Source of the DNA: Bryum argenteum
Taxonomy: Eukaryota > Streptophyta > Bryopsida > Bryales > Bryaceae
Direction of reading: 5' to 3'
DNA: 64,000 nucleotides
NCBI GenBank assembly: GCA_037043015.1
Contig: CM073322.1
Coordinates: forward strand, 18,053,601 to 18,117,600
The notes beneath the pieces are model-generated. The model saw only the letters and a list, made by a program, of their open reading frames with translations. It did not search any database and had not been told where the DNA came from. This document shows, in pieces, positions 3,945 to 54,790 of the stretch. Both the position numbers and the translations under genes were made by a program. How positions within the stretch are numbered: the stretch's first letter is position 1; the number at the start of each line of letters is the position of its first letter.

Positions 3945-4201
3945 AACCCCAATTCCGTTAAAATGGCGTTATGCCGCTAAAATGACACACCTAAACTTTC
4001 TGAACTGCAGTTCAGAAACCATGTGATATTACAGAATTTTAAGATGATATTATGGAAAATGAGTGACAATGTATATAGAGGAGTGATATTATCAGAAAAA
4101 TTGTGATATTACAGAATACACCATTCCATGTGAGCACATATGTAAGATTTGGAGTGACAAAATGGCACATGGCATAGTGCCATTTTAACGGAATTGAGGT
4201 T
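3945..4201. mobile_element. MITE with 30-bp terminal inverted repeats
   Basis: The left end AACCCCAATTCCGTTAAAAT and the right end form an inverted repeat of about 30 bp with only a few mismatches, enclosing 257 bp. GAAC occurs on both flanks (3941-3944 and 4202-4205), a possible 4-bp target duplication. The interior is AT-rich with repeats of GTGATATTACAGAAT and has no coding capacity. Superfamily undecided. Confidence 0.7.
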
Positions 4202-6083
4202 GAACCAATTAAAGCCCTTCAGATTTGTCTTTCCCTGTTGCATAGATTGTGGACTCTTGCTTGGAATGATCAAAATTCGTTGCAGACTCACTTCCAGTAT
4301 GAGCTTGAGCGCGGGAGTTGGAGCCCTCAGAAATTAATTACCACCTGCAGCACAATTTGGGAGAAAATTACGAAAAGCTTACAGTATACAATGAGACATT
4401 CGAATGGATTTTGATATTTAGAGATATGGAGCTAAAGATCTGGACAGGGTCAGTTCCATACCAGGATTCCGATGAATGGTGTAGCTCTAACCAAATTGGA
4501 GCCCTTCTGTGATCGCCAGGACGAAGTGCCTCAAGGTACCAAATAATTATCGCATAAGATCCAGAGAGTGGCCTCAAAACTGTTAAAACTCCTTAAAACT
4601 GCCTTCCATTGATGCAAGAATTAAAATTTTAGTTTTTGAGAGGGTTTGAAGCATGTTACCATAGGATCTAGTATCTAACTTGTGAATGTATACATGCGCC
4701 AAATTTTTTAATCAAAAATCTCTCGGTTGGTGCGGTTCGAAGCTGAAGAGAGCATAATAAAATTTCTATCTTTGCAGAAAGAAGCTTAGGTGTTTAGTGA
4801 TAAAAAAAAGCCAATTTTAGAAGGATGTTTGATATGAGGCTCTTGAGATTTTTGTTCTTGTGTGAGTAAGGTACATGTCTACATAGTTTGCACCGTCATA
4901 GGACCTATAAAATTGAGAGAAGTGCTTGATTTCGCACATGTAGAAATGCAGGAATTCAAATATACAAGGTTGTTTTCAAGAACCACAAAATTAAATAATA
5001 CTAATTATAATATAACAAAAATCAATGCGTGTAAAATTATTTGAAGTTGATTCATTTGGTGAATATTAAAATAATACTGTTTTGACCAAAGGTAGTGGTC
5101 TCTCTATTCAACTTATGCTACCCTTCCCTCCATCAATGTTGAGACTCATGGCCCCAATGGCTAGTTGACTTTATCAAACTCCAAATTTCATGGTCAAGAA
5201 AGGTAATAATACCTTTACTCACGGTTATGAAATCCATACTTTATAACATATCTAAGTTTTTCTTCAAACTCTTCGGGCCTTTACGAGTTAATGTGGTTGT
5301 TGCATTCAAATTTTGTTTGAAACAAACTAGTTCTCATGGTGTCCTACCTACAAATAAATGCAACAATGGAGAGTAGAAACTTATTAGGATGTTTTCAAGA
5401 GTAGAACGTTTTTCTTACTTTAGTAATAACCTTTTTTATGTTGATTCCAAATCAAGTTTTATATAACTTTGTCCCTAGTACTTCAATGTAACTCAAAAAG
5501 GTTATGCATAGAACACCAGTTAAGTAATTTTACTTTGTGAAAATTTGCCATCAATTTTGATTATTGCTCTCTTAGAGTGGTACTAATTACTATCAATCAT
5601 TTGTTACACAGTACTAAACGTAGGACAATTGATAAACCTCATGGAAGAAGCACTCATGCAAAAGGGCAAGGGAATTGTGGACGAAAAATTGGACATATAG
5701 CATAAGAGTCCAAACACAAAAAACAACATGCATTTCATCACATGAAAATATTAATATGAAATGGAAGGGAATGAATAGAAAAATTGTTTTACATGTAAGT
5801 GTCAATGGTTTTATTGGTTTAAATAATAAATGTGCAAGAATTTTTGCACAGTGGGCATCCCACAAGGGACAATCTTTACAAGCTTGAATTATTCAAATAT
5901 AACAAGCTTGACAACTGAACCTGGACGTTCGGCTATGCTAGTCTGATCATGGGGACAATTCCCCTTGAGAAGGGATTTTGAGGAGGATCATCTCAGTATT
6001 AATTGCTTGTAAATACTCTTAGAACAGAGTCTGTCGTTCTGAGTAGTAATTTCTAACAATCCCCGCTTGTGCGTATGAAGGGT

Positions 6084-6523: not shown

Positions 6524-6709
6524 CTCTCGCGATCCCTAGTAACGCGGAGGGCTTAACGCATTAAGTGGCAGTTAAGTGGAACTTAAGTGGAGCAAGCCGG
6601 AGGCAGGGTCGGAGCAGCTCGGTGGCGGTGCACCAAAGCACCTACCGTCAGTGTCCTGCCTGCACAGACGCGAGTACGACCTCCAACAACATAAAATTAC
6701 CATGATTAA

Positions 6710-6968
6710 CCCCTGAGCGCCCCCTCCAAAAAGCCCGAAAATCAAGGTGTGCAGACCGTGCCCAAGCTTATTGGGTGCCAATTCTGCAGAAGTTGATTAA
6801 TTTCAATTTCACCGTTGAGAAACATGAAGAACAGGGATGCGAAGGTGTGGGAAAAATTGGGATGGATTTCACCGCACGGATCTGGTTTCTATAATGGTCA
6901 AACAATGGTTGACTTCTGACTGGCGGAATTTCTGGCGGACACATTTAGTCCGCAGGGGCGCTCAGGGG
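6710..6968. mobile_element. piggyBac-type MITE
   Basis: A 259-bp element with perfect terminal inverted repeats CCCCTGAGCGCCCC and GGGGCGCTCAGGGG, flanked on both sides by TTAA (6706-6709 and 6969-6972). TTAA targets and CCC-starting termini are hallmarks of the piggyBac superfamily. The termini resemble those at 42148 and 59279, which bracket the piggyBac transposase of this window, so that element could have mobilised it. No coding capacity. Confidence 0.75.
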
Positions 6969-7159: not shown

Positions 7160-10100
7160 CCACGAAGTGTCGTGCTTGGGGAACAATTGAGCAAAGTGTG
7201 CTCCAATGTGAGCAATATTTTGTCCGAGTATTGCGAAAAGGTGCCCCTCCCACTCTGTATACGTCCCATCCCTGCCATTGCCACCTTCTAGTACTTGATT
7301 CTGCATACACCGAACGAAGAGGTAAACGATATCAGTGCAACTGCGTTTGAGTACCTATGACCGAAGTACTTGATACGATGATGCAGTTTAGATTCGTATT
7401 TAACTATCCGTGTAACTAGGTCTCTGCTCGAAGGAAGTCTGCCTTCGTAATTTGCAGGGACTGAGGAGCAGTGACACTGATATGAAAGAGAAAATGCAGA
7501 GAGACATGCGCAAAATAACGAACCTGTGCTTTCTCACTTTGAGGAAGAGCGGGAGGTGAGTTCCCACCCCAACTTTTGGTACCAAAAGTCATTGCATGAT
7601 GCATGCAACGCCAGACAAGGAGGAGCAAGTCAGCAACATCGGCACCATCAATGATCTCTATGATCTCGATGGTGGAAGCCAAAGGTTGGGGAAGCCATCC
7701 AGCATCTGCTACCAGATTTATCAGCCTTATAACTTGCATACGATCAAGCTTTTCCTCCCTCAAAACTCTGGGAGGTGGAAGGCCTGGGGCACGTCGAGTG
7801 CGCTACGCACTATGCCAACGAGAGATGCTGTCAACGAGAAGAACACGGATGAACATCACACATCGAACCACTTCATCACTGTTCTTGTACTTGACCACGA
7901 GCTCCAGCATCTGAAACAGAAGCGGGTTGCGACCAAAACATTCCGTCAAAAAGATGTGCCGTGGCGTGGCAACCTGCTTTGGAAGAACCTCCTCGTATTG
8001 CTCCATTGTCATCGCCAGTTCATGTGGGGTTCCCAACCGGTCTATCATCTGTGAGGCCAATACGAAGGCAGGATGTGGAGACCAAACATCCGTGTCTTCT
8101 GCAGCTCGCAAAACTGCACTCCCTACACTTCGACGTAGAATGTCACCCAATTCCATGACTGTAGTATCCACCAGCTCTTGCTTTTCAGCATCGTCCTTTG
8201 ATACCTGAAACGCAGGTCTTGTTCCGTCTTCTCTACGACGAATGGAGCCAAACTTCGTGTCCCTACCCAGAGAAGGTAGGCCAGCTGATTTTATCCGCCG
8301 ATTCTCTTCCGCGAGAGAGAATTTCGGTGATGCGAGCGAGCTGTTGCTTTCTTTTAGAGCAGGAACTAACAGAAGACTGAAGCTTCCATTATTGTCTAGT
8401 CTTCCGAGAACCAGAGTGGACGTCCCCCGTCCATTTGCAGTTCCACTTCGTCTCTGGATCTTCCAATCCAAGGACCGATCGCTTCGCTCGAATGAAAAGT
8501 CCAGTAGACTGCTAACCATAACCGTGAAAGATGCGAAGGACAACGAAGCCTGTTGCACGATTACTCGTTTCAGATGCTCTAAAACTTGCATTCGCAGCCA
8601 CTTCCGCGAGTCCTCAGCTTCGAAGTTCTCATCTACCAGTTGGAAGAATATGCCCAGGAGACCCTTAAGTCGAACCACAACTGCTTGAGAATGTGTGTCG
8701 CTGCCCGGCGAAAGGGATTGCAGGATGTGTAACACCACCAGGTGAAGCTCCCAGGAATTTTGTCTGTGTAGAAGTGGCACCAGGTGTAGCCATTGAGAGT
8801 CCCATTACCTTCCTTAGAAGCATCCAGACCACTTTCCATGACACTCCTCCTGATGCATCCGATGATTGCTCAATCAAGCGATTGTTCTGGTGGGCCTGCC
8901 AAAACGCAGGATCCAGGAATTGCTTTACTGCTAGGGCCGTCCGGAATGCCTACAGATCAATCAAAATTCGGTTACACGTTTCCTACTAGTTCAAAAGAAA
9001 CTTGGAAATGCAATGAAACAGAAATAAATGCGCGTATCCACATGTTATGGTAACTGAAAACTCAGTCATCTGCTAGCAGCAGAGATGAAAACAAAAAGAT
9101 GAATTTCATCTCGGTCGGTAGAGCTACCTCATCATCATCGGACTTGTTGATTGCAGCCACACACAACTGGGACCAAAGCTCAAAAACTTGGACACCTCGG
9201 CCTTGCCCAGCAACCATCTTCATAACCTCCATCACGAGGAAAAGCTTTATCACTGATTCCGCATCCAGTTGTCCATTCTCACTACGACTGGCGACAGTTT
9301 CCTCAGCCAAAAGCTGCGCTACCCCATTATGGCCACTCGAAAGAATAGTTATTCTACACACCCCAACAAATGGATCTCCCTTCCACCACCTACTGAGTCC
9401 ACTAATGGGCTCCATTGCAGCCTGCAAGTCACCGAACGGACTGACTAAGAATTTTGAAGGCACCGACTGTCCTGGAGAGAATGACTCTGAGCCGCCAGTC
9501 AGGAACTCTGACCATAGCATCCTCAGATTCGTCTTGAGGTTATCGATAAATACAGAGTAGCCTGTGTATTCACTCTCTGTGGTAAAAGACAACGGCTCTG
9601 CACCAACGGTCTGCTCAGTACCTGAACCACAAGTGCGCACATTTGAGAAGTGATATTGTTAATACGTCATGACTTGGAGAACAATCAAATAAGCCCCAAG
9701 CTTAGTATTCGTAGGCCAAAAGGAAAGATAGGGCTTTTCACCTAAAACGCGTGGAAGAATACGCAAGGAAAGATCCATGTGCAACCTTTGAAGCAGAGAA
9801 GCAACCTATTTCCAGCTTGTCCTTCTTTGTAACCAATCGATACAACAAGACGACGAGGCTTGTCCCGACGGGCGCTAATTCACATATCCTCCGACTAAGA
9901 ATTGCAGATAACCACACAGAAAGTCTTGTAGGTTCCTCATGATTGACACCCTGCACTTCAATCAAGGGCTAGCGTTGATACAACAGTGGTGAAAGGTACG
10001 CCAATAAAAGAAAAGAAAGGATTGTAATCACTGAAATATCCTGACTAGAAGAATATGAGCAAGAACCTTACCTCTAACATGAACCATAGGGGAGTGAGCG

Positions 10101-35554: not shown

Positions 35555-35836
35555 CGCTGCAAGAGAGCGTTCTTGTGCATTGCGATTGTGACAACACTAG
35601 CGAAAACCTGAACCCTGCCTGCAATTGCAATGGAGAATTGTAATAAATGCCGTTCATGCCAGTGCCCACATTGCAATTGCGAAGGCAAGGGGGCGGATCG
35701 GCGTAGCTCACGTAGGATTGCGAGGCGATTGCAATACCAGTTGAGGCTGCAAGATCGTGTTCTGCATGGGTGCAGTACGGGAATCAGTGGGACATGCGCT
35801 TGAGCACAGCACCATGATCCAATCACTTTGAACAAA

Positions 35837-36204
35837 GATAGATAGATAGATAGATAGAAACTCCGGTCCCTTTCTAAGGGGCCGGCGTGAATGAAGTGTC
35901 CGTTCGTAATGCTAATATCCCGATGGCCACCGGACAAGGGAAAATTAGAACAATACTACTTCCCCCTCTCGAGGGTGGACACTATAACTACGCTAGTTTC
36001 TAGCCTAGTTACTAATGCCTTAAAGATACTTGACATAGTATCCCCCCAAAAGGCTTTGAGGTACCCTTACAACAAGGTCCGAAGACCCCCCACAATAGTT
36101 GGGTGGACTATAGTGGTGAGCACCACCCCGGCATGGGGAATAGAACCCACGACCTCCTCATTGGGGGCCTAAGCCCTAACCACCAAGCCAAGGCTTGTGG
36201 AGCC
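35837..36204 (-). mobile_element. tRNA-derived SINE, copy 1
   Basis: On the minus strand a Pol III A-box-like GGCTTGGTGGTTAGGG starts near the 5' end, a B-box-like GGGTTCTATTCCC follows about 40 bases later, and the 3' end is a (TATC)n tail. A 14-bp target duplication flanks it, TCACTTTGAACAAA at 35823-35836 and TCACTTTGAATAAA at 36205-36218. The paralogous site near 12100 lacks it, so it inserted after the INTS5 duplication. Confidence 0.88.
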
Positions 36205-36274
36205 TCACTTTGAATAAAATGTAAAGTGAACCTGCCTATTTCCGGAAATATTAGCCCTTAGATGATCATCCCTA

Positions 36275-36629
36275 GATAGATAGAAACTCCGATCCTTTCT
36301 AAGGGGCTGGCGTGAATGAAGTGTCCGTTCGTAATGCTAATATTCCGATGGCCACCGGACAAGGGGAAATCAGACCAATACTACTTCCCCCTCTCAAGGG
36401 TGGACACTATAACTATGTTAGTTTCTAGTCTAGTTACTAGTGCCTTGAAGATACATGACATAGTATCCCCCCAAAGGGCTTTGAGGTACCCATACAACAA
36501 GGTCCAAGGACCTCCCAGAATAGTTGGGTAGACTACAGTGGTGAGCACCACGCCAACATGGGGAATAGAACCCACGACCTCCTCATTGAGGGCCTAATCC
36601 CTAACCACCAAGCCAAGGCTTGTGGTGCC
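36275..36629 (-). mobile_element. tRNA-derived SINE, copy 2
   Basis: Same family and orientation as copy 1, with a perfect 12-bp target duplication TGATCATCCCTA (36263-36274 and 36630-36641). The two copies differ at many positions and have different target sites, so they are separate insertions, not a tandem duplication. Confidence 0.88.
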
Positions 36630-36691
36630 TGATCATCCCTACCTGTAGGGTACAGATTTTGTAATTGAAAATTTCTACGAACTTTGTTTAT

Positions 36692-36707
36692 TGGCTCTGT
36701 CATCATG
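36692..36707 (+). repeat. outer inverted repeat, left arm
   Basis: TGGCTCTGTCATCATG is repeated exactly in inverted orientation at 40583-40598, with weaker similarity extending about 12 bp further out on both sides. The pair encloses the two TIR elements at 36714 and 38351. Confidence 0.55.
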
Positions 36708-37000
36708 CGAAAAGGCCTTCGCACATGAGGCGTTAGGCCGACGGTGACGCCCGAAACGCCGACGGTGAGCCTCCACCGCAGGCTTCCGGAAAACCTTGCG
36801 CCAGCCAAGGCCCGTCAGCGCCTGGCCTCTGCGGCACCCTGCCCATACGCTACAGCACCTGCCCCACAAACAAAAAACAAAAGTGACCCATCTACTTGGG
36901 TCACTCCCACTTATCCCCCACACCCCATGACCCCACCTACACTTACCCTCACCCCTTTGACCCCACCTCTTCTCTCTTCTTTTCTTCACTATTGTCCCCA

Positions 37001-37178
37001 CTCCTTTGTATTTTCCCCATCACTTCGTATTTTCCCCATCACTTCGTATTTTCCCCATCACTTCGTATTTTCCCCATCACTTCGTATTTTCCCCATCACT
37101 TCGTATTTTCCCCATCACTTCGTATTTTCCCCATCACTTCGTATTTTCCCCATTCCTTCATATTTTCCCCATCCCCTT
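37001..37178. repeat. 19-bp minisatellite, about 9 units
   Basis: Unit CACTTCGTATTTTCCCCAT repeated head to tail, most copies identical, with diverged units at both ends. It produces long artefactual open frames in several frames. There are no unique spacers, so it is not a CRISPR array. Confidence 0.9.
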
Positions 37179-37339
37179 ACCGACCAATTTTTCTTGTGAT
37201 TCCATCATTTCTATTATATGTATATTAGCTATTCCAAGATTTATAAAAAATGTTTTTCCTCCCTTCTTATCTAAATTTTCACTATTATTCAAAGTTGACT
37301 TGAACCACTCTAAAGTAATATTTTTTTATTTATTTCAAA

Positions 37340-37990
37340 CTTTTATGCAAAATTTAAAAAATTAATAAGTATTAATAAATTTCTAAAAGAGTAGAATAAA
37401 TAAAAGAATTGTTAAATGATAAATTTTTAATTTTTAACCATCTTTGTTGATTATTTAATAATTCAAAACGAGTCATGTTTTCTAGTGGATTTTCAATTAA
37501 CCAACTCTGATATAAATATAGTAAATACTTGTGGGCATTTTGATTGAACACCAATTTTTTCAATACGCTTAAAATTTTCAAAACTATTTTTTTCAATAAA
37601 AGGTAATTGATTCCACCAATTTATGGAAAAATCACTTATGGAATCTTGACCATACCCTCGATGAAGAAAAAATTGTTTAATTTTTTGACTTCAACTAGAT
37701 TTTTCTTGTTCTCTTCTTGCTCCATGAGTAACATATAATCTACTTAGCATTTCTTCATCTATAACTAAGTTTTGACATGAAAAAATAAAGTGATGATTCC
37801 AAAATAATAAACCAGTACGGTCCCAAAGAAGGCGTCCTCTAATACATAACGTAGGTTTATTAGATAATCGAGATTCTATTCTATATTCTGTAAAAATTAG
37901 GAAAAGCCTAAAATTTCAAACTTTCCTTCTAATAAAATATTTTCTAACTGAAATTATAATTCTTGTACATTTCTTTGTCTTGTACGGGAT
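37340..37990 (-). pseudogene. ycf2: plastid ycf2 fragment in the nucleus (NUPT)
   Basis: On the minus strand, segments in order read RGRLLWDRTGLLFWN, then EEMLSRLYVTHGARREQEKS, then QLPFIEKNSFENFKRIEKIG, then LYQSWLIENPLENMTRFELL and FIYSTLLEIY. This is the C-terminal region of plastid Ycf2. The frame contains at least two in-frame stops (for example near 37690 and 37350) and small shifts, as expected for decayed plastid DNA in the nucleus. The AT-richness differs sharply from the GC-rich flanks, marking the insert. Confidence 0.88.
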
Positions 37991-38610
37991 AAAACCCTTT
38001 CAATAAGGAAGTTGTTATTTTATTTTTTGTCAACCATTAAATTATTGTTTTTTTTGAAAAATCAAAATTATGTGTAAGTTTTGATTCATTAGGTTATTTA
38101 TCCAAGGCTGGGGTAAGGGGGGTTGGGGGGTTGGGGGGTCGTGGAGAGTAAGGGAGTAAAGGGGGGCTGGGATAAGATGGGGGGGCTGGTGGCGGGGGTT
38201 GGAATGGCCGCCCAGCAGCTAGCTGCCGGCCCCTGCCGCAGCAGCTGCCGCCAGCCTCGGCCAGACCCCTTCCAAAAATAGGGGGCCCTGGTCAGGCTCT
38301 GGTTGAGCTCCAAGGCCTCATGTGCGAGGGCCAAGATTCTTTGTTCAAAAGTCCAGCAACGATTTGTTCAAAAGTCCAATGACCTATCTCCTTCCGCATT
38401 CACACTTACGTTTTTTTCGAGTTTTTTCATTATGCATTCAAACTAGCAATTCTTCCACACGCTATGCCATGTGCCGATTGGAACGGCAGCGAACGCGGAG
38501 AGTGAATACATCACCTGGTGTGGGAGTGCGGACCCACAAGAAACGACGACAACGAACGCTGAACGAGCTCGTTGGTTTAGGGTTTTAGCGCTTCGCCTCC
38601 ACCCTTCGCG

Positions 38611-39204
38611 ATGGCTCGTACGAAGAAGAAATCGCGAGGGAAGAAGCCCAAGCAGGTAGGTTTTCACGTATAATCTCTAATTTTCTTATTAGTTTCGCGC
38701 TTCGCCATCGTTTTTTTGACGGAGTTTTGCGTGCAGCCCAAAAATGATGTTGAGGAAGTGGAGATGGAGGTGGCGGATGACAATGGAGCTAGTGCCAGTG
38801 CAGCACCGTGGGAGCCCACCAAGGTGTGGGTGCCGGGAGTCAACGAGATGGGCGAAGACGAGGAGTTACAATTCGACCCCACGGCCTACAACTGCCTCCA
38901 CTCTCCTTCAAGCTTGGTTGGCCATGCCTCAGGTAAAGGCTCGCGACAGCATTTATTTTTCATTCCTTTCAACAACTCACAGGTGTATTGACCTTGACCT
39001 TGATCCTGTAGCTTCCACATTATGCGTGACGAATTGGGAGTTTTACAAAGAGAGTTTCCTCTCACTCTGCAATGCGTCGCCGGTACTCAAGTTGAATTTT
39101 GCCTCTTCTAAACCTTCTAACCCTAAACCCTAAATTTCAGCAGATTAGCCCCTATGCAGAACTTTACGAATTTTGCACTTTTGAAGATTAGTGAGATTTT
39201 CTGA
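38611..39204 (+). pseudogene. GRWD1/Rrb1-like WD-repeat protein, captured 5' end
   Basis: Exons 38611-38655, 38737-38932, 39012-39090 and about 39141-39204. The reading is MARTKKKSRGKKPKQ, an acidic stretch, then KVWVPGVNEMGEDEELQFDP with TAYNCLH, then GWPCL, FHIMRDELGVLQREFPLTL and QCVAGTQ, in the order of plant GRWD1 (a ribosome-biogenesis and histone-binding factor). A length change near 38903-38907 shifts the frame between CLH and GWPCL. The copy stops before the WD repeats. It lies inside the TIR element, so it is a captured fragment rather than the functional locus. Confidence 0.85.
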
Positions 39205-39249
39205 TCAGAGAATCCTAGAAGAACTCATTTAAGATGGTGGCATTGTGAA

Positions 39250-39373
39250 CAGACGCCATCACGCCATCGATGACTTTCACGTACATCGTTCTCCACAAAT
39301 CGTCAATAGTCCCTCCCGGTCAGAATCGTGCACAAAGCCGGCGGGCTGCTTCGACTTCCGGGAGCTCCGGCAT
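39250..39373 (-). pseudogene. formamidopyrimidine-DNA glycosylase (FPG/MutM) first-exon fragment
   Basis: From an ATG at 39373 on the minus strand it reads MPELPEVEAARRL, the invariant Fpg N-terminus with catalytic Pro2 and Glu3, then loses frame and later shows KVIDGV, a conserved piece of plant FPG. The rest of the enzyme is absent. Captured by the TIR element in the opposite orientation to the GRWD1 piece. Confidence 0.8.
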
Positions 39374-39423
39374 CTTGCTAGCTTCAGCTTCTTTATCTGC
39401 CGTCACTAAAACACACACAAACA

Positions 39424-39477
39424 CAAAACAAAACAAAACAAAACAAAACAAAACAAAACAAAACAAAACAAAACAAA
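39424..39477. repeat. (AAAAC)n microsatellite
   Basis: About ten tandem copies of AAAAC, upstream of the FPG fragment as that gene reads. Confidence 0.95.
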
Positions 39478-39820
39478 AAATTAAAAAATTAAAAAAAAAA
39501 ATCTAATAAAACGGCCACCACCACCACAACCGGTTCTTTAACATACCAATCGTCGTCACAAAGGTCGGACCTTTACACAAAACCCAATACAAAATACCAT
39601 ATCATCATTGCTATGAGAGCGTTTCATCATTAAAGAACGGTTCTTTACAGGAAAAAAACGATTGAAGACTCTGAAGCTACAGCAACACAATGAAGAGCAC
39701 ACTATTCATGTAACAGGCAAACAACCTAGAATTTTGTGCAATTGACCTGGAGCTGTATCTAATTTATCGAATCCAACACAATCCGGATTAATCCACTTGA
39801 ATGAATTTGAAATGCCTCAC

Positions 39821-40106
39821 CTCACGAGAAGAACCAAGCCCACGCACAAGTCGCAGCAATGCATACTGCCCAGCAGTAGCATAGCCTTCGAACACACCAT
39901 CATCGTCTTTTGCTCCAAGCACCTGTGAAAATTTGGTTACATTTTAAAACTTCATAAACCCTAAACCCTGCCTAAACCCCAAAACCCCAAAACTAGAGCT
40001 GTACCTCAGCGATTCCACTTCGTCCGCTACTAGCAGCGTACTCCTCCGGCTTCTCTCGCAACTCACGCACAAGCGCAAAAGCCGCACCCTCCCGCACCCG
40101 CCATGT
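39821..40106 (-). pseudogene. DNA polymerase V / MYBBP1A-like fragment, two exons
   Basis: Exon at about 40005-40106 reads VREGAAFALVRELREKPEEY; after a GT-AG intron (39923-40004, with telomere-box repeats) exon 39821-39922 reads VLGAKDDDGVFEGYATAGQY and then ALLRLVRGLGSSRE. The pattern KxxDDG, then Y-x-LRRLVRG-x-SSRE is the N-terminal signature of Pol5/MYBBP1A nucleolar proteins. The second exon is exactly 34 codons. Only this part is present, inside the TIR element. Confidence 0.65.
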
Positions 40107-40466
40107 TCATAGATGAAAGGTTCCAGTAGATTTGCATTCCCACCGGAGTGAGACTCTGATTGGCATTGTTGGTGCCATAAACCACATCCTCTACACCGCC
40201 CGCCCCTACCATGGCTGCAATCATCTATGCTTAAAAGAGGTCTTCACCGCCCACCCTCGCCACTAAGGTGGCGCCTCACCGCCCGCGAAGTCTCACTGCC
40301 CTCCAACAAGCTCGCTCAGCGTTCGCCGCGTTCGTCGTCGCCGTTCCTCGTGGGTCCGCGCTCCCAGTCCAGGGGGCTGTGTTCACTCTCCGCGTTCGCT
40401 GCCGTTCCAATCGGCGCAGGGCACAACGTGTGGAAGGATTGCTAGTGTGAATGCAGAATTAAAAAA

Positions 40467-40471
<5 letters not shown>

Positions 40472-40500
<29 letters not shown>
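40472..40500. repeat. poly(A) run in the right TIR
   Basis: About 30 A residues, absent from the left TIR. It is the main difference between the two arms. Confidence 0.9.
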
Positions 40501-40501
<1 letters not shown>

Positions 40502-40582
40502 GTGTGTAAGTGTGAATGCTGAAGGAGATAGGTCATTGGACTTTTGAGCAAATCGTTGCTGGACCCAATACAAAGACTCCGT

Positions 40583-40598
40583 CATGATGACAGAGCCA
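40583..40598 (-). repeat. outer inverted repeat, right arm
   Basis: Exact inverted partner of 36692-36707. Confidence 0.55.
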
Positions 40599-40847
40599 GT
40601 ATACAAAACAAGGAGACGAGGGGACAAGAAAACAAGTTAAAGAAACGAGGGAAAAGAAGAATGTCAAACAATGAGGAACATGAAACGGAAACGAGGGAAC
40701 AAAAGAATGGGGGATTAGGAACGAGGCAATGGGGGACGAATAACCAAAAATGATGGAATGGAGGCTATGCTAGTCTGTTCAAAGTTGTGGCTCTAAATAT
40801 TACTTCTTAGAATTCCTGCTTGTATAGATGAAGAGGATTGTATCAAT

Positions 40848-43493: not shown

Positions 43494-43558
43494 TATTTTT
43501 GGTGAACCCGACGTGAATATCCGGGCGGTAGTTGTGTGTTTGTGGTGGATGTGAAGTG

Positions 43559-44400
43559 TGGAAGATGGAAGGAGCCAGTCAAGGGAACGCGACGTTTGGA
43601 GTCAACATGGAGCAAACCATGCGGATGTTTGAAGTTTTCCAACTCCACATGGAGCGACGACAAGGAATGCAACAACGAGAAGCTTTGGTAAGCAAAGCAT
43701 TACATTCCGTTGTTGATAAAGAAGATCAATTTGATGGTCGTGAAAGCTTTGAACTTGCTTCCATTCCCGAGATTCGAGAGAGGATCAAGGGATTGAAGGA
43801 GACCCATCAAGATTCGTGGGAAACATTCTCCCAAGCTTTGAAGGAAGAGTTTTTCATGGAGGACTCGGAGAGGGTAACCAAGAGGTCATTCCTAGAGTGG
43901 ATAACGCGCCCCAACAAGGGCTTAGGAGCAAGTGAGCTCTTGCGTGAATTTGAGCGGCAATATGGACAATTGTCGACAATTGAAAGAACGACCGTGGATG
44001 TCGAGAAAATCGAGTTATTCATTCAAGCGGCGGACCCAAAGTTGCAAGAGAAGCTTGAACCACTTTTGGAGGATCGAGAAGCGGAGCGCGGATTGAAGAC
44101 GGATTGGAAGGAGGTTGTAGGTGCGGTTTCACTACTTGCGAAGCGACAACGAAGAAGGGACAAAAGTGTGGTATGTGATGTCAAACTACCATCTTCAAGC
44201 AAATCAACTAATGCTTTTTCAAAGGTTGATGGCTCAACGATGGATGAGTTAATTAAGGGAATTCAAGAATTGAAGATTAAGATGGCCAAACTTGAAGAGA
44301 AGAGTCATCCATCGGAAGGAGCATTGAAGGGGACTTTAGGGTCAAAGTCGGCACCAACGGGGGAGAGGCTTGCCTTTGAGGTGTATGTGGTGTGATAGTT
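43559..44400 (+). other. gag region of the LTR element
   Basis: Coding region for the capsid-type protein: helical segments such as EDQFDGRESFELASIPEIRE and a retrotransposon gag core around WETFSQALKEEFF. A cysteine-histidine knuckle (C-x2-C-x4-H-x4-C) is visible around its end. Confidence 0.8.
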
Positions 44401-45199
44401 TTGCACACTCGCGAAGAGATTGTGAGGAGTTTATCAAGCTTTGGACAACAAGATTGTTGTTTTCAAAGAAGGAAGATTCACTTGAAGGATGGTACGGAGC
44501 CGTTGGAGACAAACTTCGGTCGAGGAGGTATGAAGGCATTGGTCTATAGCGTGACGAAGGAGGCAAAGACATATGGAGTGAGCATCGACGCGCCGGAGCA
44601 AGTAAGTATGTTGTGGCCAAGTGCTAAGAAGTTTGCGGAGAATGGGAAGATCAATGAAGAAGTTCTCATTCATGCTGGAAAATCCATTCGGGAAACTACC
44701 GGTTGGGACGATCCGGTGGATGCCTTGTCGGTTCATGCATATATTGCAAGAGTCCAACATGAGGCGATAATGGAGGAGAAGCGGAAGCGAGACGACGTAC
44801 ATGAAGGGGCATCAAAGAGGACAACAAGGGCGGACAAGACGCGACAAACGGTGCCAATTCGTGAGGAGTCCATGCATGATGCAATTCCTTCTTCAAAAGA
44901 CAAGGGAAAAGGCGCTGTCTTACAAATTGCAATCCGACATTGAAGCGGCCACGGATTTGAGAAAAGTTTTGGAGGATCGTATTTTGAGCGGAAAGGTGGA
45001 GTTTACCTTGGGGGAAGTTCTAGGCATTGCGAAGCGAGAGTTTCATGAAGTCATCATTGATATCATCAAAAGGAAGAGGCAAACTACGGGTGAGTCTATT
45101 CCATCTAATGTTCGTGTGGGCGAGAGTGGCAAAAGATGATGATGACCAACCTATAGGACATGTTTCTCAACTTGCAAATGCATTGGAGGAGAGCGAAGA

Positions 45200-48100
45200 C
45201 CGAACACCAAGTCATTATGCTAACAATCATTGGGCGAGGGCAACTACGGAGACTTTGGTGAAGTTGGGAGCTCTTGAAGAGCCGATTGTGGCATTAATTG
45301 ATCATGGGTCGGAGATCAATTTGATGTCAAAGGAGTTGCACGAAAAAGGAAATTGGCCCATAGATTTGGACCATGGATGGTTGATACGTGCGGCGAACAA
45401 TTCAAGGGGTGATTTGTATGGAGCATGTCCAAATGTGAAGGTCACAATTGGAGATGTTGGAGATGAACAACATTTCTTTGTTCAAGAGAGGTCGACATAT
45501 CCCATCATTCTTGGACAACCATACATCACCGCTACACGGATGGAAACGAAGGTGATGGACAACGGATCGGCGTACGCAAGGATTAGAAGCCGTGATGGGA
45601 AGAAGGCTATTCAATTCTTGACGGTTTGTGCCAACCACGAGAGAAATCGGATTGGTTTAAGGGAGCGTCCATTACCAAAGGTGCACAAGGAGTTTCGAGA
45701 CTTTGAAGACCGAAGGGATTTTCACCACATGCCATTCTAAGGCGGGATTGGGATGGTAAAAAGATTGATAGCTTCCCGCATGGAAGGAGACCACAAGAAG
45801 CCATTTCTACGGGGGTTGTTGGTTTGTCTAGGGATGGTTCTATTTGATTTAAAAACATCAAAAACTTAGAGCGAGTAGAGAGGCGTCGTGTCCAAAGTGT
45901 AGAGCACAAGTTGAAAGAGGATGGAGTGCTTGACGGAGGTGAGTATATCTCGGGAGTCTTTGAAGAAGTATGTTTGGGTGATACCATGAGTGAATTACAA
46001 TTGTTGTTGTATTCGGGTGTTGGAAAAGATGATAAGGTTGTGAGAGTTTACTCCAAGGAGTTTTATGACGAGGTGAAGAAATTCACGGATAGTTATGAGG
46101 TACGGGTGGAGACCAAGTACAAAACCGTGGCGAAGAAGGTTAGACCGGTGGCTTTGCCACTACCATTAGATTGTGAGAAGAAGGTTGATAAGGCATCTAT
46201 GCAACCAAATTTGAGAGATCCAAGGAAGATAGGCCACGAATTCGTTAACAAGGCGGCGTTGGATGGATTGAAGGTTGGCAATGAAGACTTTTTGACCAAG
46301 ATGGAGGAGGAGTCTTTTCGAAAGATGCTCTTACGGCATGGGAAGGCATTTGCATTTGAGCCGTACGAAATTGGGTGTGTTGATCCAAGTGTAGTAGCGC
46401 CAATGGTAATCTTTACCATTTCGCATACAACATGGAATTTACGACCGATTCCCGTGCCTAAAGCTCATTTGCCAAAGCTTGTGGAGTTGTTGAACGAGAA
46501 GATCAAGATGGGAATTTTGGAGCCGTCTATTGCACCATATTCTAATCGGTGCTTTACGGTGCCAAAGAAAAATGGAGCATTAAGGTTTATTCAAGACATG
46601 CAACCGGTGAACAAGGTAACTATTCGGAACATGGGATCAAGTCCAATTGTTGATGAGTATGCGGAGGCATTTGCAGGAAGATCAATTTATTCGATGGGAG
46701 ATCTTTATTCGGGATACGACCAATTCCAGTTGGCGGTGGAGAGTAGAGATTTGACTACGATGCGGACGCCATTAGGTTTGGTGAGGATGTGCACATTACC
46801 GCAAGGAGCTACTAATTCCGTGGCACACATGATGAATGGAATGAAGAAGGTCTTGAGGGATTTTATTCCGGAAAAGACTATGCCATTTCTTGATGACGTG
46901 CCTATCAAAGGATGTGCGGAAGAGGACAAAGATGAGACGTTGGATTTGAAGGGGTGCCGGAAGTTTGTTGCGAATCACATTGCCGATTGTGACAAGATCT
47001 TGACAAGATTAGAGGAGATTCATCTAACTTTATCGGGGTGAAATCAATGTTTGGAGTTGAAGAGATTACGGTGGTAGGGCATATGTGTGGAGCATATGGT
47101 CGCATGCCATCCATGGAGAAGGTGGATGCCATTCAAAAGATGAAGGAGTGCGCAAACACGACGGAGGTACGAAGATTTTTGGGAGCATGCATCTTTTATC
47201 ATATTTGGATACCACATTTTGCACATGTGGCGGATCCATTATATCTTTTGTTGAGGAAGGAACAAAAGTTTCAATGGAGGGTGGAGCAAAGCAAGTCCAT
47301 GAAGAAATTGAAGAAGCTTCTTTCATCTCCACCAACATTGAAGAAGGTTGACTACGACTCGGGAAGACCGGTGGTGATTACGGTGGATGCAAGCCCAATA
47401 GGGATTGGATGGGCAATTGGCCAAGATGATGGTAAAGGAAATAGATTTGTAGTACGATTTGGTGCAAAGGTTTTGAACTCTCGCCAACGGGCCTATACAC
47501 AAGTGAAGAGGGAGCTTTGGGGAATTGTTACGGCTATGAAGCATGAGAAGGAGTATTTGATTGGTGCATCGGTGGTTGTCGAAACGGATTGTCTACCACT
47601 ACTTGGAATGATTTCAAGTTGTTCTACACCGGATATTGCTATGTTAAGGTGGATAGCCTACATCAAGTCAATGAATCCAGAGTTCAAGCACATTGCGGGG
47701 AAGGACAATGCGGTGGCGGATATGTTGTCGATGGCAAGGTACGAGGATGAAGAGCACATGGTGGACGAAGATGAAGATGTTGGAACCAATTTTTATACCA
47801 TGGCGTTAGTGAAGAAAGAAGGATTGTGCTTGGCTACACCACTTGAGGCGTTTGTGGAAGACTTGTATGAAGGAGAATGGCTAAATAATGGGAGATACTT
47901 GAGTTCCTTGAAGAAGCAAGAGACTTGGAGTGATCAAGAATTCAAGAGGATTCGAAGAAAGGTTTATGGTTACTTTCTTCGAAATGGATTTTTGTGGAAG
48001 CATCCGAAGCTAAGGGGTGGAGTTCCACAAAGAGTTGTATGTGGAATTGAAACTCAAGAACGAATCATCAAGGAGTTTCATGAAGGTTGGTGGGCCGGTC

Positions 48101-49215
48101 ATCGTGGAGTTTGGGCAACATTTGCCAAAGTGAAGGAGAGATATTGGTGGAAGGGCATTTATAAAGATGTGGCGGACTTTGTAAGATCTTGCGAGACTTG
48201 CCAAGTCTATTCAAGTATTCGTCATAGAGATGAGTTACATCCAACCTATCCACTAACGATGCATTACAAGTGGGTTGTGGACTTGGTTGCTATGCCTATG
48301 GGAATAGGACAAAAGAAATATTTTGTGCTTGCTCGGGAGGATTTGTCTAACCAAGTGGAAGGAAGGGCGCTTCGAACGAAGACAACCGAAGGAGTATGTC
48401 GATTTCTTTTGGAGGATGTAATTTGCCGTTACGGTTGTGTAGGGAAGATTACGGCGGATAGAGGTGAATTGGACGCGAAGGAAGCACGAGAGTTCTTTGG
48501 CAAGTTGGGTATTAAACTTGCATTGACAACGGCATATAATCCGGAGGCTAATGGTAAAAGTGAGCGGGGGCATTCGCCAATTGTGAAAGCATTGGTTAAA
48601 GCATGTGATGGTAAGATGCTTGAGTGGCCTCGATTACTACCATTTGCATTGTGGGCGGATCGAACCACTCATAGCACCGTTACGGGATATATGCCGGCGG
48701 AGTTGATGTTTGGACAAAAACCAATTATGCCAATTGAAGAGGTGGTTCCAACTTGGATTATTTTGCCATGGGAGGATGGTCTTACAAGGGAGGACTTGTT
48801 GGCATTAAGGATTCGACAACTTGAAAGGAGGACTGAGGACATTGAGGAAGCTATCAAGCGGTTGAAGAAAGCAAGATTGAAGAACAAAAAGAGGTTTGAC
48901 CGAAAGCATCGGTTGCGGCCTAAAGCTATTGAAGAGGATGATTGGGTGTTGGTTTACGATAGTAGTTTGGACAACCAACATAGTACGACCAAGAAATTCT
49001 CCAAGAGATGGTTTGGGCCGTATGTTGTCAAATTGGTTCACGACAATGCTACCTATTCTTTGCGAGAGTTGGACGGTACAACCTTGAAGCTACCGATAGC
49101 GGGAAAACGAATCAAGTTGTTTAAAAGGCGTGGTGATAATTTTAAAGATGCAGGTGAAGACGCCGAGATGGAGCTTGATGAAGATGAAAACCAAGTTGAC
49201 TACATCGAACATTGA
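45200..49215 (+). other. pol region of the LTR element (PR, RT, RNase H, INT)
   Basis: Approximate parts: aspartic-protease domain 45200-45650; reverse transcriptase 46440-46950 with LRFIQDMQPVNKVTIRN, YSGYDQFQLAVE and a FLDD box; RNase H 47360-47760 with VVITVDASPIGIGWAIGQ; integrase 48060-48960 with HHCC region, VDLVAMPMG and NPEANGKSERGH; GPY/F-like end near 49010. The order with integrase last places it in Ty3/gypsy. The FLDDVPIKG box differs from the YIDD/YVDD usual in plant chromoviruses, so the lineage is worth placing. Confidence 0.88.
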
Positions 49216-52490: not shown

Positions 52491-54790
52491 CTACTTGGCG
52501 CGTGCATAATGGGCCTTGCGATAGCATTCACCCAAGTGAAACCACGCATTGTCACAATCTCAGCACATGAGATTAGTGCGAGGCGTCTTGGCCTTGCACT
52601 GGCGACAGATGTGGCGGGTTCCGGGGAACTTCTCCAACGAATGCACGTCCGGTTTGGCGTTGTAAACCGACACCACTCCACCACGACGTATCTCCAAATT
52701 CTCCATGAGGGAGAACCCGAGTTCAGTGACAAATTCCAAATGGGACTTAGGCCTTGCCCCGAACTTCGTGCTCAAATCACGATGCACGATGTAGGAGTTC
52801 GTCATCAACAAGTCCATCAAAAACATGAAGATCCAGTGCCACCACTTATGGCTCTTGGTCAACACGCTGTAAACACCTCGGAGTTGATCATTCACATCAA
52901 CTCCACGCATCTGATGCGTATACTCCAAATGAATGGGTGAGGTGGTACGTGAACCGTCCGGCCATTAGTGTACCATGGCACCGTGAGGGGGAACTCCGGG
53001 TCCGGCGAGAGCGGCTCTGCATGGGTAGATAGCAAAAGAACGGGTTTTTTATCAACCCAGACCAATGCACACAACTCACCGGTGGAGTGCATACGCCAAT
53101 CCATCGCGCCTTGCGGCTCCTTTGCCCACCGTCGCTTGTCGATCAAAGCTGTTGGCAATCCGATACGATTGGCGCGCACCGTACCCGTGCCGTACGTCCC
53201 CAACTCCAACATGTCCACCAAAAGCCGTGGCGAGGTGAAGAAGTTGTCGGTGACCGCGACGTGGCCTCGCCCATGTAGCCCCTCCATCAAATCCATGACG
53301 ACCTCATAACCTGTCCTCGCCTCCCCCGGCTTCGCCCGCGCCAAGTTCTTCTTCAAGTCGGCACCGGTGTACATCTGGAATTTGTACAAATACAATAAAC
53401 CTCTTAGAACAACTTGGATTTCACTTAGAACAACGTCTAACAAACTTAAAACAACTTGGCTACCCTATTAGAACAATTTGGATTTCACTTATCTAGAACA
53501 ACTTGTAAGAAACTTAGAACAACTTGGCTACCCACTTAGAACAATTTGGATTTCACTTAGAACAACTTCTAACAAACTTAGAACAACTTGGCTACCCTAT
53601 TAGAACAATTTGGATTTCACTTAGAACAACTTCTAACAAACTTAGAACAACTTGGCTACCCACTTAGAACAATTTGGATTTCACTTAGAACAACTTCTAA
53701 CAAACTTAGAACAACTTGGCTACCCACTTAGAACAATTTGGATTTCACTTAGAACAACTTCTAACAAACTTAGAACAACTTGGCTACCCACTTAGAACAA
53801 TTTGGATTTCACTTAGAACAACTTCTAACAAACTTAGAACAACTTGGCTACCCTATTAGAACAATTTGGATTTCACTTATCTAGAACAACTTGTAAGAAA
53901 CTTAGAACAACTTGGCTACCCACTTAGAACAATTTGGATTTCACTTAGAAGAAATTGTGAAAAAATTTAGAACAATTTGAATAACAATCTAAATAGAACT
54001 TTGCCCTAGTTCTAGCAACAATTACCTGAAAATTGTACAAGTACTTTGACACCGCGTCCGCCGCCGCCCACACCTTGAAATCAAACTTCACGGGCTTATT
54101 TGGCATATATTGTTTCATGCCATGGCCGTATATCCCTTTGTACCTCACCATCATTTCGTCTATGGTAACGACTTGACCTAAATTCCAATTCGCCATGCAA
54201 TGGTCCCGAAGCTCATCTAACAACCACCGGAGTTTGACTAATTTGTCAAATTTGGGATGGTCGCGTTCCGTGGGTGCCTCCGAATCGTTCACGATATGCA
54301 AACACTTGCTAATGGCCTCAAATCTATTCCTAGACATGCAACCCGCAATTTTGCTACAATAAAAAAACCGCTCTCTTTTCCGATAAGCCCTTCTATGAGG
54401 CAAAACCTTCAACTCCATCAATATGCAAATCCCGAGCCACGCCTCTAACTCAACCCTCCCTAACCTCCACCATGCACTTGGTCCCCTCGGGCGGTTTGTG
54501 GAGGGGTCAATCGAGGCGGCATACCTATTAGTCTCCCTACAAATTTTTAATAGAGTCCGTTTGGTGAAAAACAAGTGGAAAACGTCCTTCACACTAGGAA
54601 GATCCTTTGGCACATGTGTCGGGCCCGGCATCCGCCCATTGAAATTACCCTCACCATGGTTATACTTGGGCCTTGCTTTCAACCAAAAAGCATCATCGTA
54701 ACACTCTTTCAATGTAGGGGGCTCGTCCCAATTTCGGAGCCCCCTCACCCGCTGGAACTTACGCTCTTCCATTTGGCGTAAATTTTCCAC
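52491..54790 (-). pseudogene. piggyBac-type DDD transposase, degraded
   Basis: Two coding blocks joined by a phase-0 GT-AG intron (54025 down to 53375). The catalytic aspartates are visible: TIDEMMVRYKG followed by KQYMPNKPVKFDFKVW (block 1), then HVAVTDNFFTSPRLLVDM and HQMRGVDVNDQLRG (block 2), the piggyBac DDD/DDDD pattern of an RNase H-like transposase. The C-terminal cysteine-rich zinc domain follows (CRQCKAKTP, then CDNAWFHLGECYRKAHY). Lesions: a single-base frame shift near 52925 before the last catalytic motif, and a TGA at 52560-52562 inside the zinc domain. The frame is open 5' of 54790 to about 54970, with no certain ATG, so a 5' exon may be missing. piggyBac is rarely reported from land plants. 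Confidence 0.9.
53397..53985. repeat. minisatellite filling the transposase intron
   Basis: About nine repeats of a 64-bp higher-order unit built from three 21-22 bp submonomers, each starting CTTAGAACAA. Almost all of the 651-nt intron is made of it. Confidence 0.9.

Follow-up and report, generated by a model that had tools for sequence, protein, structure and literature searches.

In the window, the whole stretch of 64,000 nucleotides of Bryum argenteum DNA analysed here, a unit spanning roughly 36691-40599 encloses fragments of three nuclear genes between two inverted arms. Its parts are as follows (C, contig; + and -, strand):

36687..36707, +, outermost left 5' end, a 21/21 match to the family end
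36687-36690, +, TTTA, a target-like tetranucleotide directly before the left element start
from 36691, +, left element start TTGGCTCTGTCATCATG (0 mismatches), from which the left half runs rightward
~36708..38336, no strand given, nested dispersed repeat splitting the left arm (borders approximate)
38337..38575, +, remaining left arm, the subterminal 5' region (87% alike to the right arm and 85% to the ends of L010 and L012)
38574..39251, +, GRWD1 5' fragment, 91% to C4:5022296-5022975, in sense to the left 5' end
39250..39771, -, FPG upstream region and first exon, 84-90% to C8:17730757-17731217, in sense to the right 5' end
39759..40278, -, POL5/MYBBP1A-like fragment with part of an intron, exon 2, an intron and exon 1
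40303..40599, -, right arm and right 5' end, from which the right half runs leftward (inner limit approximate)

The left arm (38351-38559) and the right arm (40328-40564) align over 237 columns with 78% identity (E 6e-58), and in a multiple alignment the two are 87% alike over 238 columns. The alignment bears out the inverted repeats of more than 200 bp that the original prediction had placed around the gene pieces; its coordinates, 38351..40564, capture the arms but are too narrow as limits of the unit. Within the window, TTGGCTCTGTCATCATG has two matches at up to two mismatches, starting at 36691 (+) and 40599 (-), where shuffled sequence gives a mean of 0.03. The right 5' end matches the pattern with one mismatch and was placed by the alignment of family ends: family-wide likeness of the right arm runs to ~40601, and the element motif stops at 40599. 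The target tetranucleotides of the window copy are TTTA on the left and TATA (40600-40603) on the right, where other copies have TTTN. On the right side, positions 39893-40598 are 87% alike to locus L010, and a tree unites both window arms with the L010 and L012 ends in one clade (support 0.959), in which the left arm forms the longest branch and the internal order is unsettled. Without the nested repeat the unit is ~2.3 kb long.

The repeat that splits the left arm (36708-38336) has at least 85 matching stretches across the genome, 40 of 268 candidates having been scored. It includes a plastid piece at 37313-38105 that is 88% alike to C12:77002-77836. C12 (114,600 bases) is the plastid contig, with a long ycf2-like frame beside trnD-like sequence recognised by eye, and the gene name given to the fragment, ycf2-like, was likewise recognised by eye; the GC content of C12 is 21% in the stretch examined. 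Plastid DNA seems to have been taken up and amplified by a transposable element. The left flank of the unit is itself a common repeat, which stops 42-56 bases short of the junction (40 of 1557 candidates scored).

A search of the genome (258.8 Mb in 25 contigs) with positions 38351-40564 gave at least 76 matches, with 40 of 54 candidates scored, and located a parent for each of the three fragments that had been predicted as 5' pieces of GRWD1 (+), FPG (first exon, -) and POL5 (-). The GRWD1 fragment comprises upstream sequence or 5' UTR, exon 1, an intron, exon 2, a further intron and more exon sequence; its parent on C4, the sole match to this stretch among the matches listed for the 40 of 54 scored candidates, encodes an N-terminus that, spliced by hand, carries PF12265. 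The FPG parent on C8 has the domain PF01149, and part of the FPG piece is also 90% alike to C8:17724795-17725015. For POL5, positions 39784-40278 are 89% alike to the parent gene on C2 (C2:3819309-3819804), where PF04931 lies in a neighbouring exon; positions 39759-39820 match the POL5-related locus L015, and related POL5 pieces are present at L010, L012, L014 and L015. The claim that all pieces contain introns holds for GRWD1 and POL5 but not for FPG, which is represented by a first exon plus upstream region, and with introns retained in the former two the proposed copying from genomic DNA in a mobile-element context is confirmed. Each parent is on a contig of its own, and a side-by-side arrangement of the three, which would have spoken against the original prediction, was not found in this search. 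The predicted 3'-to-3' meeting of GRWD1 and FPG corresponds to a tail-to-tail joint at ~39250, where the two matches overlap by 2 bases; the FPG match and the match to L015 on the POL5 side overlap by 13 bases, so both joints lie at short shared stretches. With 9-16% divergence between fragments and parents, capture did not take place recently.

The arms are two outward-facing 5' ends of one dispersed and usually asymmetric family. Elsewhere in the genome the arm end is found by 44 similarity matches and by 37 + 7 pattern matches, partly at the same places. Terminal inverted repeats were rejected as a family trait: scanning 0.3-4.3 kb upstream in 19 other copies revealed no inverted partner, 17 of the 19 scoring no higher than the shuffle maximum and two (c52 and c12) one point above it; c56, one of the 19, does have an outward partner, immediately past the upstream stretch examined. 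A different far end, together with the adjacent ~2 kb, is common to three copies (c26, c28 and c52), and a 197-base query of this far (3') end finds 39 places. Our tally accordingly comprises 47 ends of the first kind (5'), including the left end in the window, and 39 of the second kind (3'); it is a lower bound, as 5' ends such as C3:16122878 and C1:42351807 are missing from it. For 30 of the 47 5' ends an unlike 3' partner lies on the same strand within 20 kb on the expected side; a same-strand 3' end on the outer side occurs in none of the 47, and an opposite-strand 3' end within 20 kb in five. A 3' partner within 20 kb is lacking for 17 of the 47 5' ends, and a 5' partner for nine of the 39 3' ends. 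Paired members measure 2,945-16,949 bases (mid-rank ~5.4 kb), and some of the longest hold other insertions, such as the Gypsy-type frames in c10 and c27. In two places on C10 3' ends stand back to back ~0.7 kb apart (3618894(-)/3619605(+) and 2927383(-)/2928101(+)). Loci L016-L024, considered as family members with inverted arms, were rejected, having only a subterminal stretch in common with the arms. Those from L017 to L023 fall into two groups of long repeats, with 96-99% identity inside each group over 2.5-5 kb, and include sequence akin to the inner portion of the arm.

A Pfam search of the genome for the Helitron Rep domain (PF14214) gave 110 matches. Rep domains lie inside three of the 30 paired members (at C1:13145357 in the member C1:13141458-13157611, at C1:15924265 in C1:15920179-15936573 and at C10:3614824 in C10:3603897-3618894), where random placement would give 0.1, and all three are on the strand that makes TTGGCTCTGTC (TTGG) the 5' end. 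The same relation is seen where Rep domains adjoin unpaired 3' ends, at C1:42337022 and C3:14785468. The Rep matches at C10:900503 and C10:905783 are a misfit: they lie between 3' and 5' ends 36 kb apart and on the strand opposite to that expected.

Read in the direction of Rep, the 5' end is TTGGCTCTGTCATCATGACAGAG, which forms a hairpin. The 5' terminus, TT|GGCTCTGTCATCATGACAGAG, gives hairpin z values of -4.68 and -3.75 in two variants, and the hairpin carries GGCTCTGTC, a motif that returns inverted 25 nt from the 3' end. Exceptions among the 20 5' rows listed are c49, which is not in register, and c10, c51, c56, c57 and the right end in the window, which are altered in or beside the stem. 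The 3' end has GACAGAGCC followed by 25 nt to the terminus, with single changes in some copies; its stem, ACGGT-CCT-ACCGT, is a weak hairpin (-3.7 kcal/mol, z -1.25), as good a structure being found in 24 of 200 shuffles. TTTN precedes the 5' end in 24 of 25 copies (TTTA in 15, TTTG in 6, TTTT in 2 and TTTC in 1; the remaining copy has GTTA), these 25 being the 27 rows minus n1, a duplicate, and m4b. The window copy contains no 3' end, with no match at three mismatches and none of the 39 listed 3' ends within it: it is a derivative and not a complete member.

Canonical Helitron1 elements begin with TC, end in CTRR and insert between A and T; that class was rejected here, the ends being TTGG... 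and ...CTTGT(T) and the target T-rich. By its termini and Rep domain the family is most likely of Helitron2 type. Two published accounts of Helitron2 describe an inverted motif that lies 0-2 nt from the 5' end in a hairpin and recurs ~20-30 nt from the 3' end, a T-rich tetranucleotide before the 5' end, and copies with both ends that lack a target duplication (PMC3627910, PMC5148889). The termini reported here agree with these features. A hairpin at the 3' end is a further Helitron2 trait, for which the weak stem described above is a candidate, and autonomous members would encode a Rep/helicase protein of the Helitron2 clade, to which the Rep domain in three paired members may belong.

The original prediction was right in seeing 5' capture of three unrelated nuclear genes, but it attributed this to a Pack-MULE, a Mutator-type element bounded by long terminal inverted repeats and carrying pieces of all three, and that attribution is not supported. 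Long inverted arms, intron-bearing pieces and their origin from 5' gene ends would all suit such an element, and yet the usual member of the family has unlike ends (30 of the 47 5' ends have a different partner), a 9-bp target duplication with at most one mismatch occurs in none of the 23 complete copies, and three members contain a Helitron Rep domain; we therefore regard it as very improbable. Duplications were sought in copies with both ends, and those of 10 and 11 bp are likewise absent from all 23 at this threshold. For 8 bp, flank likeness with at most one mismatch is seen in four of 23 copies, compared with 8% of crossed pairs. The flanks also bear on the idea that the unit is a retroposon mobilised by a LINE, with the end at ~40599 as its 3' tail. 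When reversed, this end does resemble a stem-loop with an A-rich edge (AAYAAA), and the first flank tests gave p values of 0.0003 and 0.003. The signal, however, came from two copies with repetitive flanks: m3, whose flank is self-repeating, and c12, whose flank is by eye a run of similar short motifs. With these two included, own-flank likeness exceeds cross-flank likeness at p 0.007 (23 copies), and without them p is 0.53 (21 copies); n1 (whose flanks equal those of c53), c28 (which lies in a run of A), and m4b and m10d (partner unsure) were left out of the flank tests. We dropped the LINE/SINE reading because the signal vanishes without m3 and c12 and Rep is found on the opposite strand; the retained introns speak against this reading as well, and its probability is close to negligible.

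Several members carry host gene sequence. In a six-frame Pfam search of L028, L026 and part of L012, hits were obtained in six of nine frames in the Rep sense and in none of nine antisense frames. Above the curated cut-off are EPSP synthase in L028, Ras and Roc in L026, and POL5 and UNC-50 in L012, with two frames in L028, one in L026 and two in L012 having at least one such hit; below it are Ras and Roc in L028, UNC-50 in L026 and a second POL5 stretch in L012. A P450 fragment in c12, above the cut-off, is on the same (Rep-sense) strand, and L061 gave no Pfam hit in six frames. Wherever a captured gene could be recognised, it follows the 5' end and is in sense to it. L012 also contains, at ~4099-4357 and inside the POL5-bearing element, a short repeat whose inverted ends measure 29 bp, and an edge resembling it is visible by eye at ~6650 of L011.

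It is the POL5 parent locus, L011 (C2:3815000-3824900), that suggests how such genes may have been acquired. Upstream of POL5 it holds degraded pieces of the 5' end at 8342-8444 (73-82% identity in the longer hits, E 3e-6 to 7e-4) and a piece of the arm at 6680-6729 (92-94%), in the same order and on the same strand as in the elements. The spacing is 1.6 + 1.9 kb, compared with 0.2 kb + 14 bases in the window, and the wider spacing could stem from later insertions. This layout is the one expected if the copying of an upstream insertion overran its 3' end into POL5. Rolling-circle copying from a 5' end would, in such a case, run past the 3' terminator into the downstream gene and yield one-ended copies with arbitrary 3' limits. 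For Helraiser, an experimental study reports that bypass of the 3' end transduces flanking sequence and that some transposition occurs without the right end (PMC4778049). A search of the 4-9 kb examined ahead of the other two parents, GRWD1 and FPG, revealed no comparable relic of a 5' end.

From the left 5' end the unit leads into GRWD1 and from the right one into POL5 and then FPG, the two halves meeting tail to tail at ~39250. The locus is most likely a non-autonomous derivative of Helitron2 type, in which the genes were captured by overrun and two one-ended copies were joined at their tails. Observed elements of this explanation are the ends, the family, the parents, the sense orientation, the three members with Rep and the layout of the POL5 locus. 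Two one-ended copies in opposite orientation may have come to abut through nearby insertion, microhomology joining or recombination, and the inverted repeat would then be a by-product of their fusion. Alternatively, the unit might move as a whole in the manner of a TIR element, copying that starts at one 5' end being stopped at the inverted other. The inverted 5' end indeed shows GACAGAGCC and a near-edge hairpin, like a true 3' end, and a second outward 5' pair exists at C9:2884828-2887788, so that two outward pairs within 4 kb are observed where random placement predicts 0.008. Among the candidates scored (40 of 54 for the window unit and 40 of 73 for the C9 pair), however, neither interior was found a second time with an arm on each side. 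The interior of the C9 pair holds a high-copy repeat and a stretch that is 91% alike to C9:10772088-10772886. Its arms are 95% alike to each other and equally 95% alike to C2:8097560, hence no closer mutually than to that position, and their likeness stops on both sides at the element edge of AAYAAA type, as it would after two separate insertions.

Given two pairs against 0.008, independent insertion suffices only if elements cluster locally. C4 contains three more pairs, one facing outward with 17.5 kb between its ends, one facing inward and one with both ends on the same strand, and together with the close pairs of 3' ends on C10 these indicate that the elements cluster anyway. Because of this clustering we prefer the joining of two one-ended copies to a single mobile unit with two 5' ends, which we consider quite unlikely for this locus. 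The more general proposal, that an inverted Helitron2 5' end can, by virtue of the shared end motif, serve as a substitute terminator and that a segment with two 5' ends can then move as a TIR-like, gene-bearing unit, appears unlikely too; if it were true, some annotated Pack-MULEs or foldback elements could be misread Helitron2 derivatives. Among the papers listed by a loosely worded literature search none was on point for Helitrons with two 5' ends, which is no proof of absence.

The nearest known systems are Helitron2/Helentron elements, namely Helitron-1_CRe and CRe-1, CRe-2 and CRe-3 of Chlamydomonas and FoHeli of Fusarium. They have in common with the present family the 5' hairpin motif and its inverted 3' repeat, the T-rich tetranucleotide, two-ended copies without duplication, and the occurrence of one-ended copies (PMC3627910, PMC5148889). 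In the present family, by contrast, several members carry host gene fragments in sense, and the window copy lacks a 3' end, having a 5' end on either side instead. The one-ended CRe copies are truncated at the 5' end, keep the 3' end and are flanked by 7-19-bp duplications (PMC3627910), whereas here 17 of 47 5' ends lack a 3' partner within 20 kb and nine of 39 3' ends lack a 5' partner. The serial gene pieces and a capture route by bypass of the 3' end recall the gene-capturing Helitron1 elements of maize and bats (PMC4778049; see also PMC3288121); in contrast to those, the family lacks TC...CTRR ends and has a T-rich target instead of an A-T dinucleotide.

Our evidence suggests that gene pieces are shuffled, in sense, by a Helitron2-type family of a plant, and the layout of the POL5 parent locus fits capture by overrun of the 3' end. 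Pack-MULEs are chimeras of 5' gene fragments flanked by long inverted repeats, and in this respect the window locus is alike; unlike Pack-MULEs, the usual member of its family has different ends and no 9-bp duplication. Paired Helitron2 5' ends can thus mimic Mutator terminal inverted repeats, and annotation by inverted arms alone can therefore misname the superfamily.

Other mobile sequence surrounds the unit. A 227-base repeat occurs twice to its left, at 36273-36487 and 35836-36062, and is also inserted in the c26 element and found near L049. To its right, frames of a Gypsy-type LTR element occupy 43532-49215 (+), with reverse transcriptase, RNase H and integrase domains from 45911 on, and a frame with a DDE_Tnp_1_7 transposase domain lies at 53945-54790 (-).
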